Of a DNA stretch of 24,593 nt, positions 6,272-21,800 are shown one piece after another. Each line of letters opens with the position of its first letter. Within the stretch, counting starts at the first letter, position 1. The notes below the pieces were generated by a model that saw only the letters and a list, made by a program, of their open reading frames with translations, had not been told where the DNA came from and searched no databases. This DNA is from a virus: the IMG/VR virus record IMGVR_UViG_3300008450_000427, positions 1 to 24,593 of that record. The stretch is one strand, 5' to 3'. Both the position numbers and the translations under genes were made by a program.

Positions 6272-8134
6272 TTAGATATTAGTACAACGACCTTGAATAT
6301 CTAAAGAAGGGAACTTAATCTCAAATATAGAAGGATCTAAAGAAGGATAAATTGTATTAGATTGAGTTGCTCCTTTAATATCATATGCATATTTACTATA
6401 TCCTAAATTTTCTCCTACTAAGTTTGTTATTTCTATATTTTTTACTGTTTGAACTCCTTCTATTGAATCCAATAGAATATAAAGATCTCTCAATACTATA
6501 GGTTCATTAATTTGCCATTTATCTATTGCAAAATAATCTTGTAAAGCAACTATACATTTAGTCAATATTTCATTACTATTGAAATTAGGTAAAACAATAA
6601 TATCAAAGTTAACTCCTATATTAATAATAAATGCATCTTTTATATTAACTGAATCATTTACCATTTTATATTGTGATAAATAAGTAGTTAAATTTTGTTT
6701 TAATGCTGGGGAGCAAGTATTAAGTTGTTTTAATGAATTATAAGATAAAACATATAAATCCAATACAGATTGAGATTCACCAGCTGAAATGGATTGAGCT
6801 TTAGTAGGTTCAATATAGGCTTTAGAAATAACACCATATTTGGCGGGCATAGATAAAGCCCTTACTAAATAATCATTTTGGGTTACATTTCGTAATTGGG
6901 AAGCAAAATTGGCAGACGCATTTTGTCTAATTTCCTCTATTGAATCTCCATCCCCTCCTCCATCTGCTGCTGTTGGATTGGTTATAGCCAATGAAGAAAA
7001 AATTGTATTTGCTGTGGTTGAATTTAAATTTGAATTTAAAAATCTAGTATTTGCCACTAAATTTGTTAAAGTATTAGCATCAACATTTGATTGAACCCCT
7101 CCTCCTACTAAATATCTTACTGTTAAAGTTGTATTTGAAGGGGCAATACCATAAGTTTTAGTAAATAAAAAATTGTTTGGTGAATAAGCAGTTGTTAATT
7201 TATTTTGTCCAAAAGGTAATCCTAAACCTACATTATCTGGATTTGGAGTTATTTCTTCATCAGTATCATTTGCTGTACCTGAACCAAATTGGAGTTGTAA
7301 AGTATTTGAGTTTAAAAATCTAGTAGTAAATCTTCTTTGGATTAGATTTAATTGTAATAAATAGGGTGTATCTCCTGAATATTGAGATAAATAAGGGTCA
7401 TTTTGGTTAGTATTTTTGATAGAATCAAACACTGTTTCTTGAGCCAAATAATCTACCTCATACCATTTATTACCATTATTATCTATTATATCCAATATTC
7501 CTATTATTCTTTCTCCATTAATTTCAACTGTTGAAAATGGAACTGGTAAACCAAAAGAAAAAGTTGTAGTTTGAATGGTTGCTGATGATACTTGTCTAGT
7601 TTTCTTTAATAAAAAATAAGTTGGATTAACCCCAGACACCGCATATACTGAAACCTCTGTTGGGTCACTTGAACTTGAAACAGAAAAATCAACAGGATCT
7701 GATGTTAAAAATGTTATATTATTTGTATTTAAATTAGATCTAACAGTTGCATTTTCAGGTATATATAAAGCATAGTCAAAATCAGGTACATATTCTGAAC
7801 CTGATAATTTGGAAGGGAGTTGTTGATAAAAATCAATATTGGTAGTTGCAACTTGTGTTACATTGGGTTTATACCCAAACATATATGCCAATTCATATAA
7901 ATTGTTTGTTTGGCGAGCATATTGTAAAAAGTTTTCTTGTATTTGATTGTCTAAATAAAACGATAAAACATCACCTACATATGCTGCCATTTCCATAAAC
8001 ATCATACCTGGTGATGATGGAGAAAAATCATTGTATGTGTTAGGGAAATAAGTTCTAGCATAATCTATTAAACTAGCCCTTAGTTCTGTAAAATCTTTAT
8101 TTATGTAGGTTATATTTCGTTTTTTAGTAGTCAT
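6272..8134 (-). CDS. baseplate wedge protein, gp6 / phage Mu-P2 J-like
   Basis: A 620-residue protein. Residues 1-90 contain YINKDFTELRASLIDYARTY, then SPSSPGMMFMEMAAYVGDVL and YLDNQIQENFLQYARQTNN, the hallmark start of T4 gp6-like and J-like baseplate wedge proteins. Near residues 390-450 is the second conserved block: GGGDGDSIEEIRQNA, then RNVTQNDYLVRALSMP and GVISKAYI. In this family the protein dimerises around the hub and links the wedges into the inner baseplate ring. The gene follows directly on the gp25-like gene (they share one base), the order known from T4-like and P2-like baseplates (W/gp25 then J/gp6). Length is close to T4 gp6. This is one of the firmest assignments in the window. 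Confidence 0.9.
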   Translation of the reverse strand: MTTKKRNITYINKDFTELRASLIDYARTYFPNTYNDFSPSSPGMMFMEMAAYVGDVLSFYLDNQIQENFLQYARQTNNLYELAYMFGYKPNVTQVATTNIDFYQQLPSKLSGSEYVPDFDYALYIPENATVRSNLNTNNITFLTSDPVDFSVSSSSDPTEVSVYAVSGVNPTYFLLKKTRQVSSATIQTTTFSFGLPVPFSTVEINGERIIGILDIIDNNGNKWYEVDYLAQETVFDSIKNTNQNDPYLSQYSGDTPYLLQLNLIQRRFTTRFLNSNTLQLQFGSGTANDTDEEITPNPDNVGLGLPFGQNKLTTAYSPNNFLFTKTYGIAPSNTTLTVRYLVGGGVQSNVDANTLTNLVANTRFLNSNLNSTTANTIFSSLAITNPTAADGGGDGDSIEEIRQNASANFASQLRNVTQNDYLVRALSMPAKYGVISKAYIEPTKAQSISAGESQSVLDLYVLSYNSLKQLNTCSPALKQNLTTYLSQYKMVNDSVNIKDAFIINIGVNFDIIVLPNFNSNEILTKCIVALQDYFAIDKWQINEPIVLRDLYILLDSIEGVQTVKNIEITNLVGENLGYSKYAYDIKGATQSNTIYPSLDPSIFEIKFPSLDIQGRCTNI

Positions 8135-15326: not shown

Positions 15327-15408
15327 TAGTCAGGACAGGATTCAAACCTGCACCGTTGGATTTACAGAAAGTCCTACCAGAAGCGTCTGTCAATTTCACC
15401 ACCTGACT
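15327..15408 (-). tRNA. tRNA-like element 1, anticodon unclear (possible pseudo-tRNA)
   Basis: The ends are tRNA-like: acceptor AGTCAGG/CCTGACT with discriminator A, a Leu-like D region (GGTGAAATTGACAGAC) and a T-arm CAGG-TTTGAAT-CCTG. It has the same length as the Leu(TAA) tRNA at 16152. In the middle no 5-bp anticodon stem with a 7-base loop can be drawn; the closest is GGA...TCC around a loop containing CTGTAAA. It shares its acceptor stem with element 2. It may be a decayed tRNA or a tRNA mimic. Confidence 0.5.
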
Positions 15409-15487: not shown

Positions 15488-15588
15488 TAGCCAGGACAGG
15501 ATTCGAACCTGTATCTTTACCAACCTTTAACATCCCTTTGAGAAGATTGGGGACTCGAACCCCATGTTACCAATTACACCACCTGACT
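15488..15588 (-). tRNA. tRNA-like element 2, 101 nt, abnormal core
   Basis: The acceptor AGTCAGG/CCTGGCT, a D-arm of Gln/Glu type (GGTGTAATTGGTAACA) and a final T-arm (ACAGG-TTCGAAT-CCTGT) are clear. Between them are a second T-arm-like hairpin GGGG-TTCGAGT-CCCC, which would give a CGA anticodon if used as the anticodon arm, and an 8-bp stem CCAATCTT/AAGGTTGG. Total length is about 25 nt beyond a normal tRNA. It could be a type II tRNA with an oversized variable arm, a recombined tRNA, or a mimic. Confidence 0.5.
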
Positions 15589-16250: not shown

Positions 16251-16286
16251 GTGTTGATGTTGTTTTTCTTATCAACCTCAACATTG

Positions 16287-16318
16287 TAAATATACGAACA
16301 ATTTTTCAAAAAGCCAAA
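16287..16318 (-). promoter_or_regulatory. Bacteroidetes-type promoter for Leu-Leu-Met-Asn tRNAs
   Basis: TTTG (16318-16315), 20-bp spacer ending TTCG, TATATTTA (16294-16287). The leader contains GTTGAT...ATCAAC and the shared AAGAAAAACAA. A palindrome lies 20 bp upstream of the -33 box. Confidence 0.78.
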
Positions 16319-16338
16319 TCTTTTTAAAAGATTTTTTC

Positions 16339-16359: not shown

Positions 16360-16430
16360 CACGCCTGTAAGGAATCGAACCCTACCCTCGAGGTTTTGGA
16401 GACCTGAGCGGCACCTTGCCTGTCAGACGT
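16360..16430 (-). tRNA. tRNA-Trp (anticodon CCA)
   Basis: The acceptor ACGTCTG/CAGGCGT has discriminator G. The anticodon stem AGGT/ACCT holds loop CTCCAAA, and the T-arm is TAGGG-TTCGATT-CCTTA. The D-arm is short (AGGC-AAGGT-GCC), giving a 71-nt tRNA. Confidence 0.87.
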
Positions 16431-16437
16431 AGGTTTG

Positions 16438-16508
16438 AGGTCAGTACTGGAGTCAAACCAGTCTAGAGGCTTTTGCAGAGCCTTACCTAATCGCTCGGAC
16501 AACTGACC
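16438..16508 (-). tRNA. tRNA-Cys (anticodon GCA)
   Basis: The acceptor GGTCAGT/ACTGACC carries discriminator T, the Cys identity base. The stem AGGCT/AGCCT holds loop CTGCAAA, and the T-arm is ACTGG-TTTGACT-CCAGT. Confidence 0.93.
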
Positions 16509-16515
16509 TTATGGG

Positions 16516-16589
16516 TGGTTCCTATAGGATTTAAACCTATAACCTCTTAATCCGTAGTTAAGTGCTCTATTCTGTTGAGCTAAGGAACC
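16516..16589 (-). tRNA. tRNA-Arg (anticodon ACG)
   Basis: The acceptor GGTTCCT/AGGAACC has discriminator A. The stem CTTAA/TTAAG holds loop CTACGGA, and the T-arm is ATAGG-TTTAAAT-CCTAT. The A34 is expected to be read as inosine if the host has TadA. Confidence 0.92.
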
Positions 16590-16596
16590 CGTTAGT

Positions 16597-17049
16597 CTAT
16601 TTAACTAATGTATCGGCAGCAAATGTTGCCATTGCTCCAAAAGTTTTGTATCTAACCTCATAACCCATTCCTACAATTAATCCAATTGCTGAAGTTAAAA
16701 CTTCATTGGATTTATATCTTTTATCTGGGTTAATATCAATATCAATATATTTTACTTTAGGCAAACCAGCTTGTTTCAAAAACTCAGCTACTTCAATTGA
16801 TTTCCAAACTTCGTTCATCAATCTAATTTGTCTAACTTTTTCAGGTTCTGTTTTTTCCCTTTTATACAACACATGTGCACCATTTCCAGGTTTATATAGC
16901 GCGACTACTGTTGCATATATAGTCTTATCTTTATATCCTTGAGAATCACATCCAATCAAAATTTCAACGTTGTTATACATTGATATATAAGATTTGATAT
17001 AATCTACGATGTCAACCTGCTTGTTTGTTACTAGTGTTTTAAAGTCCAT
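16597..17049 (-). CDS. RNase H-like protein, YkuK / DUF458 type, inside the tRNA array
   Basis: A 150-residue protein with the look of the YkuK (DUF458) branch of the RNase H-like superfamily. Asp35 in ILIGCDSQGYKD, then strands TIYATVVALYKP and HVLYKREKT, an acidic YIDIDIN (Asp103/Asp105) and a late Asp146 could supply the acidic metal-binding cluster; Glu80 is a further candidate. Members may act on nucleic acid, but their substrates are not established as far as I know. It sits between tRNA-Arg(ACG) and tRNA-Ser(GCT), 40 bases after the latter, with no promoter of its own visible, so it is probably carried on the polycistronic tRNA transcript. A role in RNA processing is a guess from position. 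Confidence 0.75.
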   Translation of the reverse strand: MDFKTLVTNKQVDIVDYIKSYISMYNNVEILIGCDSQGYKDKTIYATVVALYKPGNGAHVLYKREKTEPEKVRQIRLMNEVWKSIEVAEFLKQAGLPKVKYIDIDINPDKRYKSNEVLTSAIGLIVGMGYEVRYKTFGAMATFAADTLVK

Positions 17050-17089: not shown

Positions 17090-17177
17090 CGGAAAATGTT
17101 GGTATCGATCCAAATACTCTTTAATGAGTACGCATTGCTTAGCAGGCAAGCCCTTTCACCATCTAGGGTCATTTTCC
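17090..17177 (-). tRNA. tRNA-Ser (anticodon GCT)
   Basis: This is an 88-nt class II tRNA with acceptor GGAAAAT/ATTTTCC and discriminator G. The stem CTTGC/GCAAT holds loop CTGCTAA, and the long variable arm includes TACTCATTAAAGAGTA. Confidence 0.93.
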
Positions 17178-17183
17178 AAATTG

Positions 17184-17257
17184 GGGTGTTTAAGGAATTT
17201 CGAAATCCCGACCTCTGGATCCACAAACCAGCGCTCTTCCTCTGAGCTATAAACACC
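17184..17257 (-). tRNA. tRNA-His (anticodon GTG)
   Basis: The acceptor GGTGTTT/AAACACC has discriminator C, as in tRNA-His. The anticodon arm CTGG/CCAG has loop TTGTGGA plus one T-T mismatch. The base before position 1 is T, so the -1 G must be provided after transcription or by other processing. Confidence 0.9.
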
Positions 17258-17262
17258 ATTTG

Positions 17263-17335
17263 TAGGGATGAGGAGATTCGAACTCCTAACCTCGATTGTA
17301 TAAGAATCTTGCTCTCACCATTGAGCTACATCCCC
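17263..17335 (-). tRNA. tRNA-Ile (anticodon TAT)
   Basis: The acceptor GGGGATG/CATCCCT has discriminator A. The anticodon arm has loop CTTATAC, and the T-arm is AGGAG-TTCGAAT-CTCCT. It reads AUA directly, which suits an AT-rich phage and avoids the lysidine route. Confidence 0.92.
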
Positions 17336-17343
17336 ATATATTG

Positions 17344-17417
17344 TAGTGATAGTAAGACTCGAACTTACAACCTTCTCCGTATCAGAGAGATGCTCTCACC
17401 AATTGAGCTATACCACT
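17344..17417 (-). tRNA. tRNA-Ile (anticodon GAT)
   Basis: The acceptor AGTGGTA/TATCACT has discriminator A. The stem TCTCT/GGAGA (one G-U pair) holds loop CTGATAC, and the T-arm is GTAAG-TTCGAGT-CTTAC. Confidence 0.93.
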
Positions 17418-17423
17418 AGGTTG

Positions 17424-17507
17424 TGCCGCCTACAGGATTCGAACCTGTTCACCCAAAAGGGACTAGATTTACAGTCTAGCGTACCTCTCCCACTGTACCG
17501 CGATGGC
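17424..17507 (-). tRNA. tRNA-Tyr (anticodon GTA)
   Basis: This is a class II tRNA. The stem CTAGA/TCTAG holds loop CTGTAAA, the variable arm is CCCTTTTGGG, and the T-arm is ACAGG-TTCGAAT-CCTGT. The acceptor (GCCATCG against AGGCGGC) has two mismatches, which is poor for a functional tRNA unless edited or tolerated. Confidence 0.85.
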
Positions 17508-17513
17508 GTTTTG

Positions 17514-17589
17514 TCCCTCCTGCTGGATTCGAACCAACGATCTTCTCTGTGTAAAAGAGATGCTTTAAAACCGACTAAGCGAAGGTGGG
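17514..17589 (-). tRNA. tRNA-Val (anticodon TAC)
   Basis: The acceptor CCCACCT/AGGAGGG has one A-A mismatch and discriminator A. The stem TCTCT/AGAGA holds loop TTTACAC, and the T-arm is GTTGG-TTCGAAT-CCAGC. Confidence 0.88.
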
Positions 17590-17640
17590 TGGTCCAACTT
17601 TATGATTTAAACTATCAACGGCATGTGACTCCTTAGTTTT
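17590..17640 (-). pseudogene. possible decayed tRNA 3' half
   Basis: The minus-strand spacer between tRNA-Lys and tRNA-Val contains GATAGTTTAAATCAT, like a T-arm, and ends AGTTGGACCACC, like an acceptor end. No D-arm or anticodon arm fits in the remaining 30 bases, and the T-stem pairs poorly. Probably a tRNA remnant. Confidence 0.3.
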
Positions 17641-17642
17641 TG

Positions 17643-17717
17643 TGACCCCGGGAAGATTCGAACTTTCGATCCCCTCATTAAAAGTGAGGTGCTTTAAACC
17701 AACTAAGCTACGAGGTC
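17643..17717 (-). tRNA. tRNA-Lys (anticodon TTT)
   Basis: The acceptor GACCTCG/CGGGGTC has discriminator A. The stem CCTCA/TGAGG holds loop CTTTTAA. The T-arm is GAAAG-TTCGAAT-CTTCC, with a mismatch in the outer stem. Confidence 0.92.
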
Positions 17718-17722
17718 TTTTG

Positions 17723-17796
17723 TAGGGTAAGCCGGACTCGAACCGACATGATGTCCACATCCCAAATGTGGAGGCTTACCATTAGCCCATTACCCT
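17723..17796 (-). tRNA. tRNA-Pro (anticodon TGG)
   Basis: The acceptor AGGGTAA/TTACCCT has discriminator A. The stem CCACA/TGTGG holds loop TTTGGGA, the D-arm is GGCTAATGGTAAGCC, and the T-arm is GTCGG-TTCGAGT-CCGGC. Confidence 0.93.
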
Positions 17797-17807
17797 AATT
17801 AAAATTG

Positions 17808-17880
17808 TGTACCAGATAGGTATCGAACCTATATCCTCTGCTCTTCAGGCAGTTGCATGAACCTCCATTGCTACTGGTAC
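17808..17880 (-). tRNA. tRNA-Phe (anticodon GAA)
   Basis: The acceptor GTACCAG/CTGGTAC has discriminator A. The anticodon arm CTGC/GCAG holds loop CTGAAGA, and the T-arm is ATAGG-TTCGATA-CCTAT. It is the first tRNA after the leader with a terminator at 17914-17934. Confidence 0.9.
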
Positions 17881-17913: not shown

Positions 17914-17934
17914 AGCCTAACTTTTGGTTAGGCT
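17914..17934 (-). terminator. intrinsic terminator in the tRNA leader (attenuator candidate)
   Basis: On the minus strand AGCCTAAC and GTTAGGCT pair (8 bp) around loop CAAAA, followed by TTTTAAG. Its 5' arm shares AGCC (17931-17934) with the 3' arm of the 12-bp hairpin at 17931-17979, so the two cannot fully form together. Confidence 0.7.
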
Positions 17935-17979
17935 CACAATGTTTGGTTTATATATAATTTATAACCTACATTATGAGCC
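17931..17979 (-). promoter_or_regulatory. long leader hairpin competing with the terminator
   Basis: On the minus strand GGCTCATAATGT pairs with ACATTGTGAGCC over 12 positions, one of them G-U. An inner GGTT/AACC stem extends it. The stop codon of the 29-codon ORF lies at the end of its 5' arm. Confidence 0.6.
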
Positions 17980-18055
17980 GCCACAATCTAATATCTTCTG
18001 CCACGGGAGATATCCAGGCATTGAGACTAAATTGATATGACTTATTATGTTTCAT
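17966..18055 (-). CDS. 29-codon leader ORF ahead of the main tRNA unit
   Basis: The ORF begins ATG at 18055, some twelve bases after the promoter's TATATTTA box, and ends TAG at 17966. It has 29 codons and ends R-L-W-R-L-I-M. Codons near the end include TGG, CGG, CTC and ATA, several of which look uncommon in this AT-rich window, though I did not count usage. The stop codon falls in the 5' arm of the long hairpin, the position expected of an attenuator leader peptide. No family is recognisable. It may be untranslated, in which case the region is a small RNA of about 150 bases. Confidence 0.4.
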   Translation of the reverse strand: MKHNKSYQFSLNAWISPVAEDIRLWRLIM

Positions 18056-18067
18056 TTTTCTATATTA

Positions 18068-18099
18068 TAAATATACGAAAAAGATTTCAAAGTTCCAAA
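18068..18099 (-). promoter_or_regulatory. Bacteroidetes-type promoter for the main tRNA unit
   Basis: TTTG (18099-18096), 20-bp spacer ending TTCG, TATATTTA (18075-18068). It lies just after tRNA-Gly and ahead of the attenuator-like leader. Confidence 0.75.
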
Positions 18100-18418: not shown

Positions 18419-18574
18419 TTAAAGAGTATCCTTTACCAAACTATCAGATTTAATAGTTGAATCAGATACAATGGTAGAGTCTACTGATGTTGAATCTACA
18501 ACCGGGGTTTCTGTAGGTACAGAACATGCAACAAACATGGTTGCAATCATAAGTGTGAAAATTACTTTTTTCAT
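18419..18574 (-). CDS. small lipoprotein inside the tRNA array
   Basis: A 51-residue protein starting MKKVIFTLMIATMFVACSVP. Residues 1-17 form a signal peptide with basic start and hydrophobic core, and the lipobox-like FVAC makes Cys17 the lipidation site. The mature part is only 34 residues, rich in Val, Asp, Ser and Thr (VVDSTSVDSTIVSDSTIKSD). A longer frame opens upstream, but its extra residues come from the tRNA, so this Met is the start. Such short Asp/Ser-rich lipoproteins are common in flavobacterial genomes, so it may be a host-acquired extra gene. Small phage lipoproteins sometimes block superinfection; that role here is inference. A TATATTTATA sequence lies just upstream. Confidence 0.75.
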   Translation of the reverse strand: MKKVIFTLMIATMFVACSVPTETPVVDSTSVDSTIVSDSTIKSDSLVKDTL

Positions 18575-18700: not shown

Positions 18701-18732
18701 TAAATATATGAAAGAACTTTTAATTTTCCAAC
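18701..18732 (-). promoter_or_regulatory. promoter variant for the first tRNA unit
   Basis: GTTG (18732-18729), 20-bp spacer ending TTCA, TATATTTA (18708-18701). It has an imperfect -33 box but the exact spacing. It drives tRNA-Leu, the lipoprotein, tRNA-Thr and tRNA-Gly. Confidence 0.65.
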
Positions 18733-18768
18733 CTTAAGTACATTCCCTTAAGCGGGAACGTACTCAAG
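18733..18768 (-). terminator. 15-bp stem-loop with the DUF932 stop codon in its loop
   Basis: On the minus strand CTTGAGTACGTTCCC pairs with GGGAATGTACTTAAG (two G-U pairs). The loop GCTTAA contains the TAA stop of the 266-residue gene. No T-run follows, so it may be an mRNA 3' end stabiliser or factor-dependent terminator. The next promoter's -33 box starts at its foot. Confidence 0.55.
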
Positions 18769-19548
18769 AGCCAAATCATACAAACGTTCGTTCAAAACCA
18801 TATCTTGTTGGAAGTTTTTAATTTTACGAGCCTTCCTTGATTTTTCTCCATATTGGTATCGGAAATCACCTTTAACCAATTTTTCTTGAACTACATTATA
18901 TACATTCCACAAATCCATACTCCTGTCTTCTGGACGGGTTGGGGTAAGGAGATCTTCCAAATCAATTTCAATATTATTGATGTCTTCTCCAAACCTAACT
19001 TCAAGTGCTTTTTGAGCAAATTCAAGGGCTTGTTCTTGACCAAGTTCTACTTGTCGGAATTTGTTAAGAGATTCAACAGTCAAAGGCAATTTTTCAACCA
19101 TACCTTTAATGGTATTTTGGAGTTCTTCAAATGAATAACCATAATGCCTAATTTTCATGTTTTCAAATTCACGTGAGGAAATAACCAATCCATTTTCACA
19201 CACCAACCTAAACAAACCAGCGGTAAAAGTAAATGCATTTTTACCGTCATGTGAATTGGTCAATAGGATTTGTGGGAAAACATTATCACCATCTTCGGCT
19301 GTAATTTGCAAATCATTATTGCGGAAAACCACCAGATGTTTTTGGTAACCCACTCCCTTACGAGCTTTAACTTCTTTGGCATCAACTACTCCCCAACCCA
19401 AAATAGACATATCATCAATGATTTTTTCGGTTGAGATGTGAGCATACTTGTCACTTACATTTGGGGAACCTTTGTCAGTAAAAATAGAATTGGCTTTCTG
19501 ACGGATTTGGGTTTTGGTGAGGAATTGGGAGTTTTGAATGTTTAGCAT
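18748..19548 (-). CDS. DUF932 family protein A
   Basis: A 266-residue protein with DUF932-type blocks: LGWGVVDAKEVKARK near 50-64, NSHDGKNAFTF near 98-108, then FRLVCENGLVISS near 113-125, and a helical C-terminal half (EQALEFAQKALEVRFGED; LWNVYNVVQEKLVKGDFRYQ). DUF932 proteins are found in phages and plasmids, sometimes called phage/plasmid-like or LGT_TIGR03299 proteins; their biochemical role is unknown to me. The second copy at 21015-21800 shares the same order of blocks. It has its own promoter at 19581-19612, and its leader is the shared AAGAAAAAT type. Its wording of codons looks less AT-biased than that of the second copy. Confidence 0.8.
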   Translation of the reverse strand: MLNIQNSQFLTKTQIRQKANSIFTDKGSPNVSDKYAHISTEKIIDDMSILGWGVVDAKEVKARKGVGYQKHLVVFRNNDLQITAEDGDNVFPQILLTNSHDGKNAFTFTAGLFRLVCENGLVISSREFENMKIRHYGYSFEELQNTIKGMVEKLPLTVESLNKFRQVELGQEQALEFAQKALEVRFGEDINNIEIDLEDLLTPTRPEDRSMDLWNVYNVVQEKLVKGDFRYQYGEKSRKARKIKNFQQDMVLNERLYDLALEYVPA

Positions 19549-21014: not shown

Positions 21015-21800
21015 TTAAGCTACTGCTACTAGTTCAAATAATTCTTTATTAATACGAGTATCTTCCTCTATACTAGATATACCATTTAAAGGATTACCTG
21101 AATGGTCTACAAGTCTGTGGGGTTGAGTAAGATTTTCTTGAATCCTATTGAATACAGTCCATACATCTTCTCCTTTATCTTCTTCTCTTACTATATTAAG
21201 TAATTGAGATACATCAATTCTATGACCTTTACCAAAACGAATATCAGCAGCTTGAGTAGCTAAATTCATTGCTTCTTGAGGTGACAAATCTCTTTCTTTT
21301 AGTTTATTAAACTCTTCCATTACACCTTGAGTACGAATACCAAGATCACAAAGAATTTCTTGCAAACTATATTGACCTTTTTCAGTATGTGGTACTTTAG
21401 CACTACTATAAGATGTATGAGCAATCATACCATTTTCACAAACCAGACGATAAGCACCTAAATCTAATTCCATTGGTTTAGAACCATTACATGAATTAAA
21501 AATATTCATAGTGGCAACAGCATCAATTTGACATTTACTATTGGTAACTTTAAAATCAGGATGTTCCATTCTAATAAAGTGAGAACCAATTTTACGATTT
21601 TGTTTATTACGCTGTTCATAAGCACCAGCAATATTCCAACCTTGGTGTTGAAATTCTCTAACAGCATCTAAGGATTCAATCATAGTTGCTTTAGAATTAA
21701 TACGTTGAGAAGCTCTCCAATCTTTATCCAATGAAGGAATAAAGGCAGATAGTTTGTTAATGTCGTTGTTTAGGGGAATTAAGTTAATACCTTTTTTCAT
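21015..21800 (-). CDS. DUF932 family protein B (paralogue of A)
   Basis: A 261-residue protein with the same block order as the copy at 18748-19548: QGWNIAGAYEQRNKQNRK, then MNIFNSCNGSKPMELDLGAY, RLVCENGMIAHTS, a helical EAMNLATQAADIRFGKGHRI and a 'DVWTVFNRIQENLTQPHRLV' block. The two differ widely in side chains, so duplication is old or the two were acquired separately. It starts with the Met at 21800, 18 bases after the promoter's TATATTTA box, after a leader close to AATAAGAAAAA. Function in phages is unknown to me. Having two copies in separate, similarly promoted units suggests distinct roles or partners. Confidence 0.8.
   Translation of the reverse strand: MKKGINLIPLNNDINKLSAFIPSLDKDWRASQRINSKATMIESLDAVREFQHQGWNIAGAYEQRNKQNRKIGSHFIRMEHPDFKVTNSKCQIDAVATMNIFNSCNGSKPMELDLGAYRLVCENGMIAHTSYSSAKVPHTEKGQYSLQEILCDLGIRTQGVMEEFNKLKERDLSPQEAMNLATQAADIRFGKGHRIDVSQLLNIVREEDKGEDVWTVFNRIQENLTQPHRLVDHSGNPLNGISSIEEDTRINKELFELVAVA

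Follow-up and report, generated by a model that had tools for sequence, protein, structure and literature searches.

On the minus strand of the window, by which we mean the whole 24.6-kb stretch of viral DNA analyzed here, a Bacteroidota-type promoter is followed in order by a 29-codon ORF, a hairpin, an intrinsic terminator, a boxA and a series of tRNA genes. The promoter (18099-18068) comprises TTTG (18099-18096), a 20-nt spacer and TATATTTA (18075-18068), and its -33/-7 pattern is kept before the leader in the related loci L007, L008, L009 and L011 and at most other sites described below. The leader ORF (18055-17966) encodes MKHNKSYQFSLNAWISPVAEDIRLWRLIM and ends in TAG, the first base of which is also the last base of GGCTCATAATGT (17979-17968), the 5' arm of a 12-pair putative antiterminator hairpin. 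The 3' arm of this hairpin (ACATTGTGAGCC, 17942-17931) overlaps the 5' arm of the terminator (GAGCCTAAC-CAAAA-GTTAGGCTT with its T tract, 17935-17913), GAGCC being common to both structures. Next come the boxA (GTTCTTTGACATATTG, 17907-17892), a motif known from Bacteroidota rRNA operons, and tRNA-Phe (17880-17807). All of these elements, including the terminator that shares bases with the hairpin, had been listed in a first-pass annotation of this DNA and were found where it had placed them. No close named relatives of the window record were found. When the leader was compared with Rfam, only tRNA matches reached the gathering threshold and no leader family appeared over the leader at E<=1, which places it outside the T-box and other RNA leader families described there.

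ARAGORN called 19 tRNAs on the minus strand of the window, and about 12 tRNA genes lie between the leader and the next promoter (16317). The first block (17182..17880) holds Phe, Pro, Lys, Val, Tyr, Ile(GAT), Ile(TAT) and His. It is followed by tRNA-Ser(GCT) (17090..17177), which was recognized by inspection from its 7-pair acceptor GGAAAAT/ATTTTCC after being missed by ARAGORN and Rfam, and by a gene for an RNaseH_like (PF04308) protein (16597..17049) that is also found inside the unit in relatives. The last genes before the next promoter are tRNA-Arg(ACG), tRNA-Cys(GCA) and a Trp(CCA)-like tRNA (16360..16589), the latter (16430-16360) again identified by inspection. The first-pass annotation had described a ten-tRNA transcription unit, a figure that holds for the ARAGORN calls (the first block plus Arg and Cys) and rises to about 12 with Ser(GCT) and the Trp-like gene.

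Two promoters inside the array (16320-16245 and 15675-15600, minus strand) run via boxA-like GTTCTTTAAAA straight into tRNA genes. The first of them (16279..16320) consists of TTTG...TATATTTAC, followed by the boxA-like motif and tRNA-Leu. As neither has a leader attenuator, part of the array may escape control. Elsewhere in the window, odd or degenerate tRNA-like genes that ARAGORN did not call lie at 15488-15588 and 15327-15408 (Rfam 42 and 29 bits), a small lipoprotein-like ORF (MKKVIFTLMIATMFVACSVPTE...) occupies 18419-18571 between tRNA-Leu and tRNA-Thr, and a DUF932 protein is encoded at 18748-19548, with a similar-looking 261-aa ORF at 21015-21800.

With a RecA-like neighbor protein as query, 56 related loci were retrieved; four carried a homologous leader, and in three to five others the anatomy was the same but the leader had diverged. 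Scans for boxA and for a terminator followed by boxA yielded 252 loci, which were then screened mechanically for a terminator immediately upstream of boxA. Of 83 matches, five were dropped by hand as false (L144, two in L169, L189 at 3180 and window position 18717), leaving 78 sites in contigs of uncultured phages, 48 of which have leaders no more than 75% alike. Two further scans, run with other patterns and near-identical detection rules, added 21 new sites that served as a hold-out set, and two more sites were found in the cultured Tenacibaculum phage Gundel_1. By these counts, phages of Bacteroidota-type bacteria apparently have, in all, about 100 switches of this kind. The terminator-boxA pattern itself occurred in 75 stretches of viral contigs and in none of ~85,000 bacterial and archaeal species genomes, where boxA itself is common. 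Nucleotide searches that used the L105 and L150 leaders as queries matched no named phage. Three candidates among named phages were rejected as attenuators: the annotated surroundings of the phi14:2 match show no tRNA gene, the ALITA match sits in annotated protein genes, and the Lak phage boxA is preceded by a promoter-like sequence without a leader. A variant outside the counted set was seen in L041 (~7750-7960), where a leader ending GGGTTTAAC...GTTAAACCC and a terminator have only the GTTCTTTAAAA motif behind them, followed by a new promoter with boxA.

The boxA found here shares its exact sequence with one from host rRNA operons of Bacteroidota, which Rfam located in the 16S-23S spacer at the two loci it resolved; the phage boxA may likewise recruit a host NusB/NusE-type complex. 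Among 126 exact boxA sites sampled from viral contigs, 23 belonged to attenuators, 34 lay between tRNAs, 28 preceded a tRNA without such a terminator, 3 followed the last tRNA and 38 had no tRNA nearby. Phages of Bacteroidota thus seem to use the host rRNA boxA widely. The motif also occurs at the end of some phage arrays, just before a protein gene (L062-L181 and other loci), and in loci of Bacteroidales genomes (L302-L337) TTTACACG or ATTACCG often comes after the exact boxA.

The RNA of the window leader folds beyond chance, at -41.5 kcal/mol compared to -25.2 +/- 3.4 for shuffles (z -4.9). In the predicted minimum free energy structure of the whole leader the antiterminator is formed and the terminator broken, with an additional hairpin inside the ORF; with the ORF end masked, the remaining 3' segment adopts the terminator fold (-11.9, z -3.4). 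The two structures are thus mutually exclusive by in silico pairing, as in an attenuator. Both helices are 98% paired in seven close relatives, and pairing falls to 12-48% when the partner is slid by 1-3 columns. Two antiterminator pairs and three terminator pairs have changed on both sides in these relatives; the former count is weak when taken alone (reached by 43 of 500 shuffles), the latter stronger (3 of 500). Across sites, the ORF-end arm pairs with the terminator 5' arm better than shuffles do (mean z -2.3), and the median distance between the 3' end of this arm and the end of the ORF is -1 nt. Exchanging arms between sites gave a less sharp contrast (mean z -1.8; 19 of 48 sites at or below 5%), as the same motifs recur in many of the terminators, and at some sites (L108, L229, L242) the antiterminator arm has only 6-7 pairs. 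The ORF between promoter and terminator is itself under purifying selection, with a pN/pS of 0.30 among leaders of 80-95% DNA identity and 0.59 at a second divergence level. The pairs were chosen by DNA identity, choice by peptide identity being a source of bias in the ratio. Both values support the view that the leader is translated. The first-pass annotation had proposed that translation-sensing attenuation governs this tRNA array and had named conserved pairing with changing bases in relatives as a check; the conserved anatomy and the compensatory changes speak for that proposal.

The composition of the leader peptides mirrors the tRNA genes behind them. As a working definition, a unit comprises the tRNAs downstream of a site and ends at the next attenuator or where a gap of 1.5 kb occurs. 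An amino acid was present in the leader in 96-98% of cases if its tRNA was in the unit, versus 56-59% for other amino acids, giving an odds ratio of 17-33 when stratified by amino acid. When leaders were shuffled among 18, 24 or 36 clusters, the observed match was reached in 0 of 20,000 permutations each. For random phage-protein fragments of equal length, coverage of the unit amino acids was only 0.72-0.74, and leaders covered only 0.48-0.53 of those amino acids whose tRNA gene lies in the same locus but outside the unit. In three phages with two attenuators, leaders matched their own unit in 48 of 49 cases and the other unit in 22 of 49 (Fisher 2e-9). Where units are small, the leaders have a narrow composition that fits the unit they precede (L175, L204, L241, L213 and Gundel_1): the L204 leader MKTLLDILLVSLMAVALLWDDDAEEVRKVGFIEGDRG stands before Asp, Asp, Glu, Val, Leu, Leu, Ala and Trp, and the L175 leader MRNYMNICDYRNINMNINECEDYISTTG before Glu, Glu, Asp, Asp, Tyr, Tyr, Asp and Cys. 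At the other extreme, the L007 leader contains all 20 amino acids in 31 residues and precedes an array of 21 tRNAs. Counts of distinct amino acids alone ("pangram" leaders) were too weak a measure (mean z 0.7 over 48 leaders), and the tRNA match was used instead.

The window leader lacks Cys, Gly and Thr. It does not control the tRNAs for Gly and Thr, whose genes are located upstream of the leader; Cys, however, is a genuine exception, as tRNA-Cys is in the unit, and leaders of relatives start with MKHC. A few other leaders miss amino acids of their unit, namely L080 (G, R, V), L228 (W) and L220 (D, at 5.9 kb). In the hold-out set every unit amino acid was present in the leader at 17 of 17 sites with two or more unit amino acids, versus 0.59 for out-of-unit amino acids, a match reached in 0 of 10,000 permutations; for the six hold-out leaders least like the discovery set, the difference remained at the upper extreme of the permutations (34 of 10,000). 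As in an attenuator, the leader codons are therefore cognate to what the operon supplies.

The correspondence extends to codon boxes. Where only one of the two boxes of an amino acid had its tRNA in the unit (Arg CGN/AGR, Leu CTN/TTR, Ser TCN/AGY, Ile ATY/ATA), the leader used this box more in 25 cases, less in 2 and equally in 3 (18 clusters), and in the hold-out set 16 cases agreed, 1 was against and 6 were ties. This agreement favors reading by tRNAs over a function of the peptide. Position within the leader matters as well. Codons before the last eight match the controlled tRNAs at 0.91-0.92 versus 0.39-0.42, while the last eight codons show no match (0.33 vs 0.31-0.32; 18-36 independent leader clusters for both), and by position the enrichment is ~1.5-fold at codon -10 and farther upstream, with little or none below -9. 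A ribosome stalled in the last codons would hide the antiterminator arm, so attenuation predicts a match limited to upstream codons; the regulatory codons are indeed placed such that a stall would leave the arm free. In the window leader, codons 2 to ~21 would form the tRNA-sensing zone and the last eight the antiterminator arm region. The first-pass annotation had suggested sensing at, for example, TGG, CGG, CTC or ATA codons near the ORF's end, a placement that these data do not support: the four codons lie in or beside the antiterminator arm, where a stalled ribosome would mask the arm and favor termination. It had also missed that the codon set of the leader mirrors the tRNAs of its unit and that the architecture is spread widely among these phages.

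Gundel_1 was reached through tRNA similarity and not through the search pattern. Its first leader (MKTKLYSYSCFSSWFKNRAG and a stop codon) precedes an annotated tRNA cluster of Tyr, Trp, Phe, Ser(TGA), Cys and Ser(GCT), in which Tyr and Trp were assigned by inspection (Rfam just below threshold), as was Cys. The second leader (MKTNNLHIQQNNLPVFLEGFLYM and a stop codon) precedes Pro, Gln, Met, Asn and Leu(TAG). At both terminators the 5' arm is complementary to the ORF end (AGCAGGA/TCCTGCT; TGGAAGGATTT/AAATCCTTCCA). Neither site has a boxA, and for the first leader the predicted minimum free energy structure favors the terminator.

Overall, a ribosome-mediated transcription attenuator that polls many tRNAs at once is very probably the best explanation for this architecture, judged from sequence. 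RNA polymerase would start just downstream of 18068, trailed by a ribosome that translates the leader ORF, whose codons correspond to the tRNA genes farther downstream. If all polled codons were read promptly, the ribosome at the stop codon would cover the ORF-end arm, the terminator (17935-17913) would form and the tRNA genes would stay off. If charged tRNA were short for any polled codon, as might result from tRNA nucleases, host shut-off or decay, codon mismatch or starvation, the ribosome would stall upstream of the arm. The freed arm could then pair with the segment that includes the terminator 5' arm, blocking the terminator and allowing polymerase to enter the boxA and the tRNA genes. 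The boxA may help polymerase through the long structured tRNA region. Such a switch would act by feedback, with a shortage of tRNA increasing the supply until ribosomes again read the leader smoothly.

An alternative is that the leader reports overall ribosome speed or shortage, such as during host shut-off, its rich composition simply offering many chances of slowing. The 17-20 different amino acids that some leaders hold in ~30 residues (all 20 in L007) would suit such a role, and the antiterminator is expected to form also with no ribosome at all; by sequence alone, shortage of polled tRNAs and general failure of translation are indistinguishable. However, narrow small-unit leaders matched to their own unit, two leaders in one phage that divide the amino acids as the tRNAs are divided, and codon boxes that follow anticodons argue against a sensor of this kind, and we regard it as unlikely. 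Sensing through the peptide sequence, by a nascent-peptide arrest leader of the SecM or TnaC kind, is more improbable still: class-specific motifs such as W..P or KH(M/I) do recur, but composition tracks the tRNAs and not one arrest motif, and many unrelated peptide classes occur in the same architecture. Least probable is that a small protein gene with its own terminator merely neighbors tRNAs transcribed from elsewhere, since, although short ORFs with terminators are common in phages and the window array holds more promoters (16317, 15670), the terminator ends at a median of 7 nt before boxA, leaving no room for a promoter between them, the ORF end is complementary to the terminator arm, and peptide classes that share no family yet match their tRNAs.

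Taking the leaders as attenuators that poll tRNAs, we consider it likely that they are widespread viral regulators in which one short peptide checks for the presence of many tRNA species, codon box by codon box. Should any of these be missing, for instance through cleavage by anticodon nucleases of the host, precisely the tRNA genes that follow the leader would be switched on, and phages would have divided their tRNA repertoire into several units, each polled separately. The presence of tRNA genes in phages has lacked a clear explanation for more than 50 years (PMC10264068). If the leaders work in this way, the phage itself names the tRNAs whose shortage it anticipates and makes substitutes only when that shortage occurs, and codon compensation, host decay and tRNA-nuclease defense would all become testable through one reporter. 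Attenuation would thereby be extended from single amino acids to the whole tRNA pool, in a natural and modular sensor of tRNA shortage. In a non-exhaustive search of open-access full texts, no attenuator on phage tRNA genes and no leader polling a whole tRNA set were found.

Phage tRNA arrays have been described as counter-defense against host tRNA nucleases (PMC10264068, PMC11555353). The genes considered here are of the same kind and a trigger by tRNA shortage would fit that role, but here a sensor is proposed; the text of PMC10264068 makes no mention of a promoter, attenuation or a terminator. The boxA of rRNA operons recruits NusB/NusE in antitermination (PMC4807359, PMC10250234), whereas here it is found ahead of phage tRNA genes as well as between them, in many cases just after a regulated terminator. 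The leaders resemble pheST and T-box systems in that a shortage of charged tRNA is proposed to switch on part of the translation apparatus, and differ in that the tRNA genes themselves are controlled. In pheST leader attenuation and T-boxes such a shortage turns on aminoacyl-tRNA synthetase genes; one tRNA is sensed and a synthetase made, and T-boxes bind tRNA directly, without a leader peptide. In the trp attenuator, a pause hairpin (1:2) synchronizes ribosome and polymerase; the layout here has two hairpins, with the arm inside the ORF end and no separate pause hairpin established. Attenuation of amino-acid operons (trp, his and the multivalent ilv/leu) has the same leader ORF, regulatory codons and antiterminator opposed to an intrinsic terminator, and slow reading of the regulatory codons leads to read-through (PMC1183508). 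In contrast to these operons, the product here is tRNA rather than enzymes, the setting is phages, a boxA follows, and up to ~16 amino acids would be polled per leader, by codon box. The principle is thus that of known amino-acid operon attenuation, and what is new is a leader peptide that holds the amino acids and codon boxes of the tRNAs it controls.
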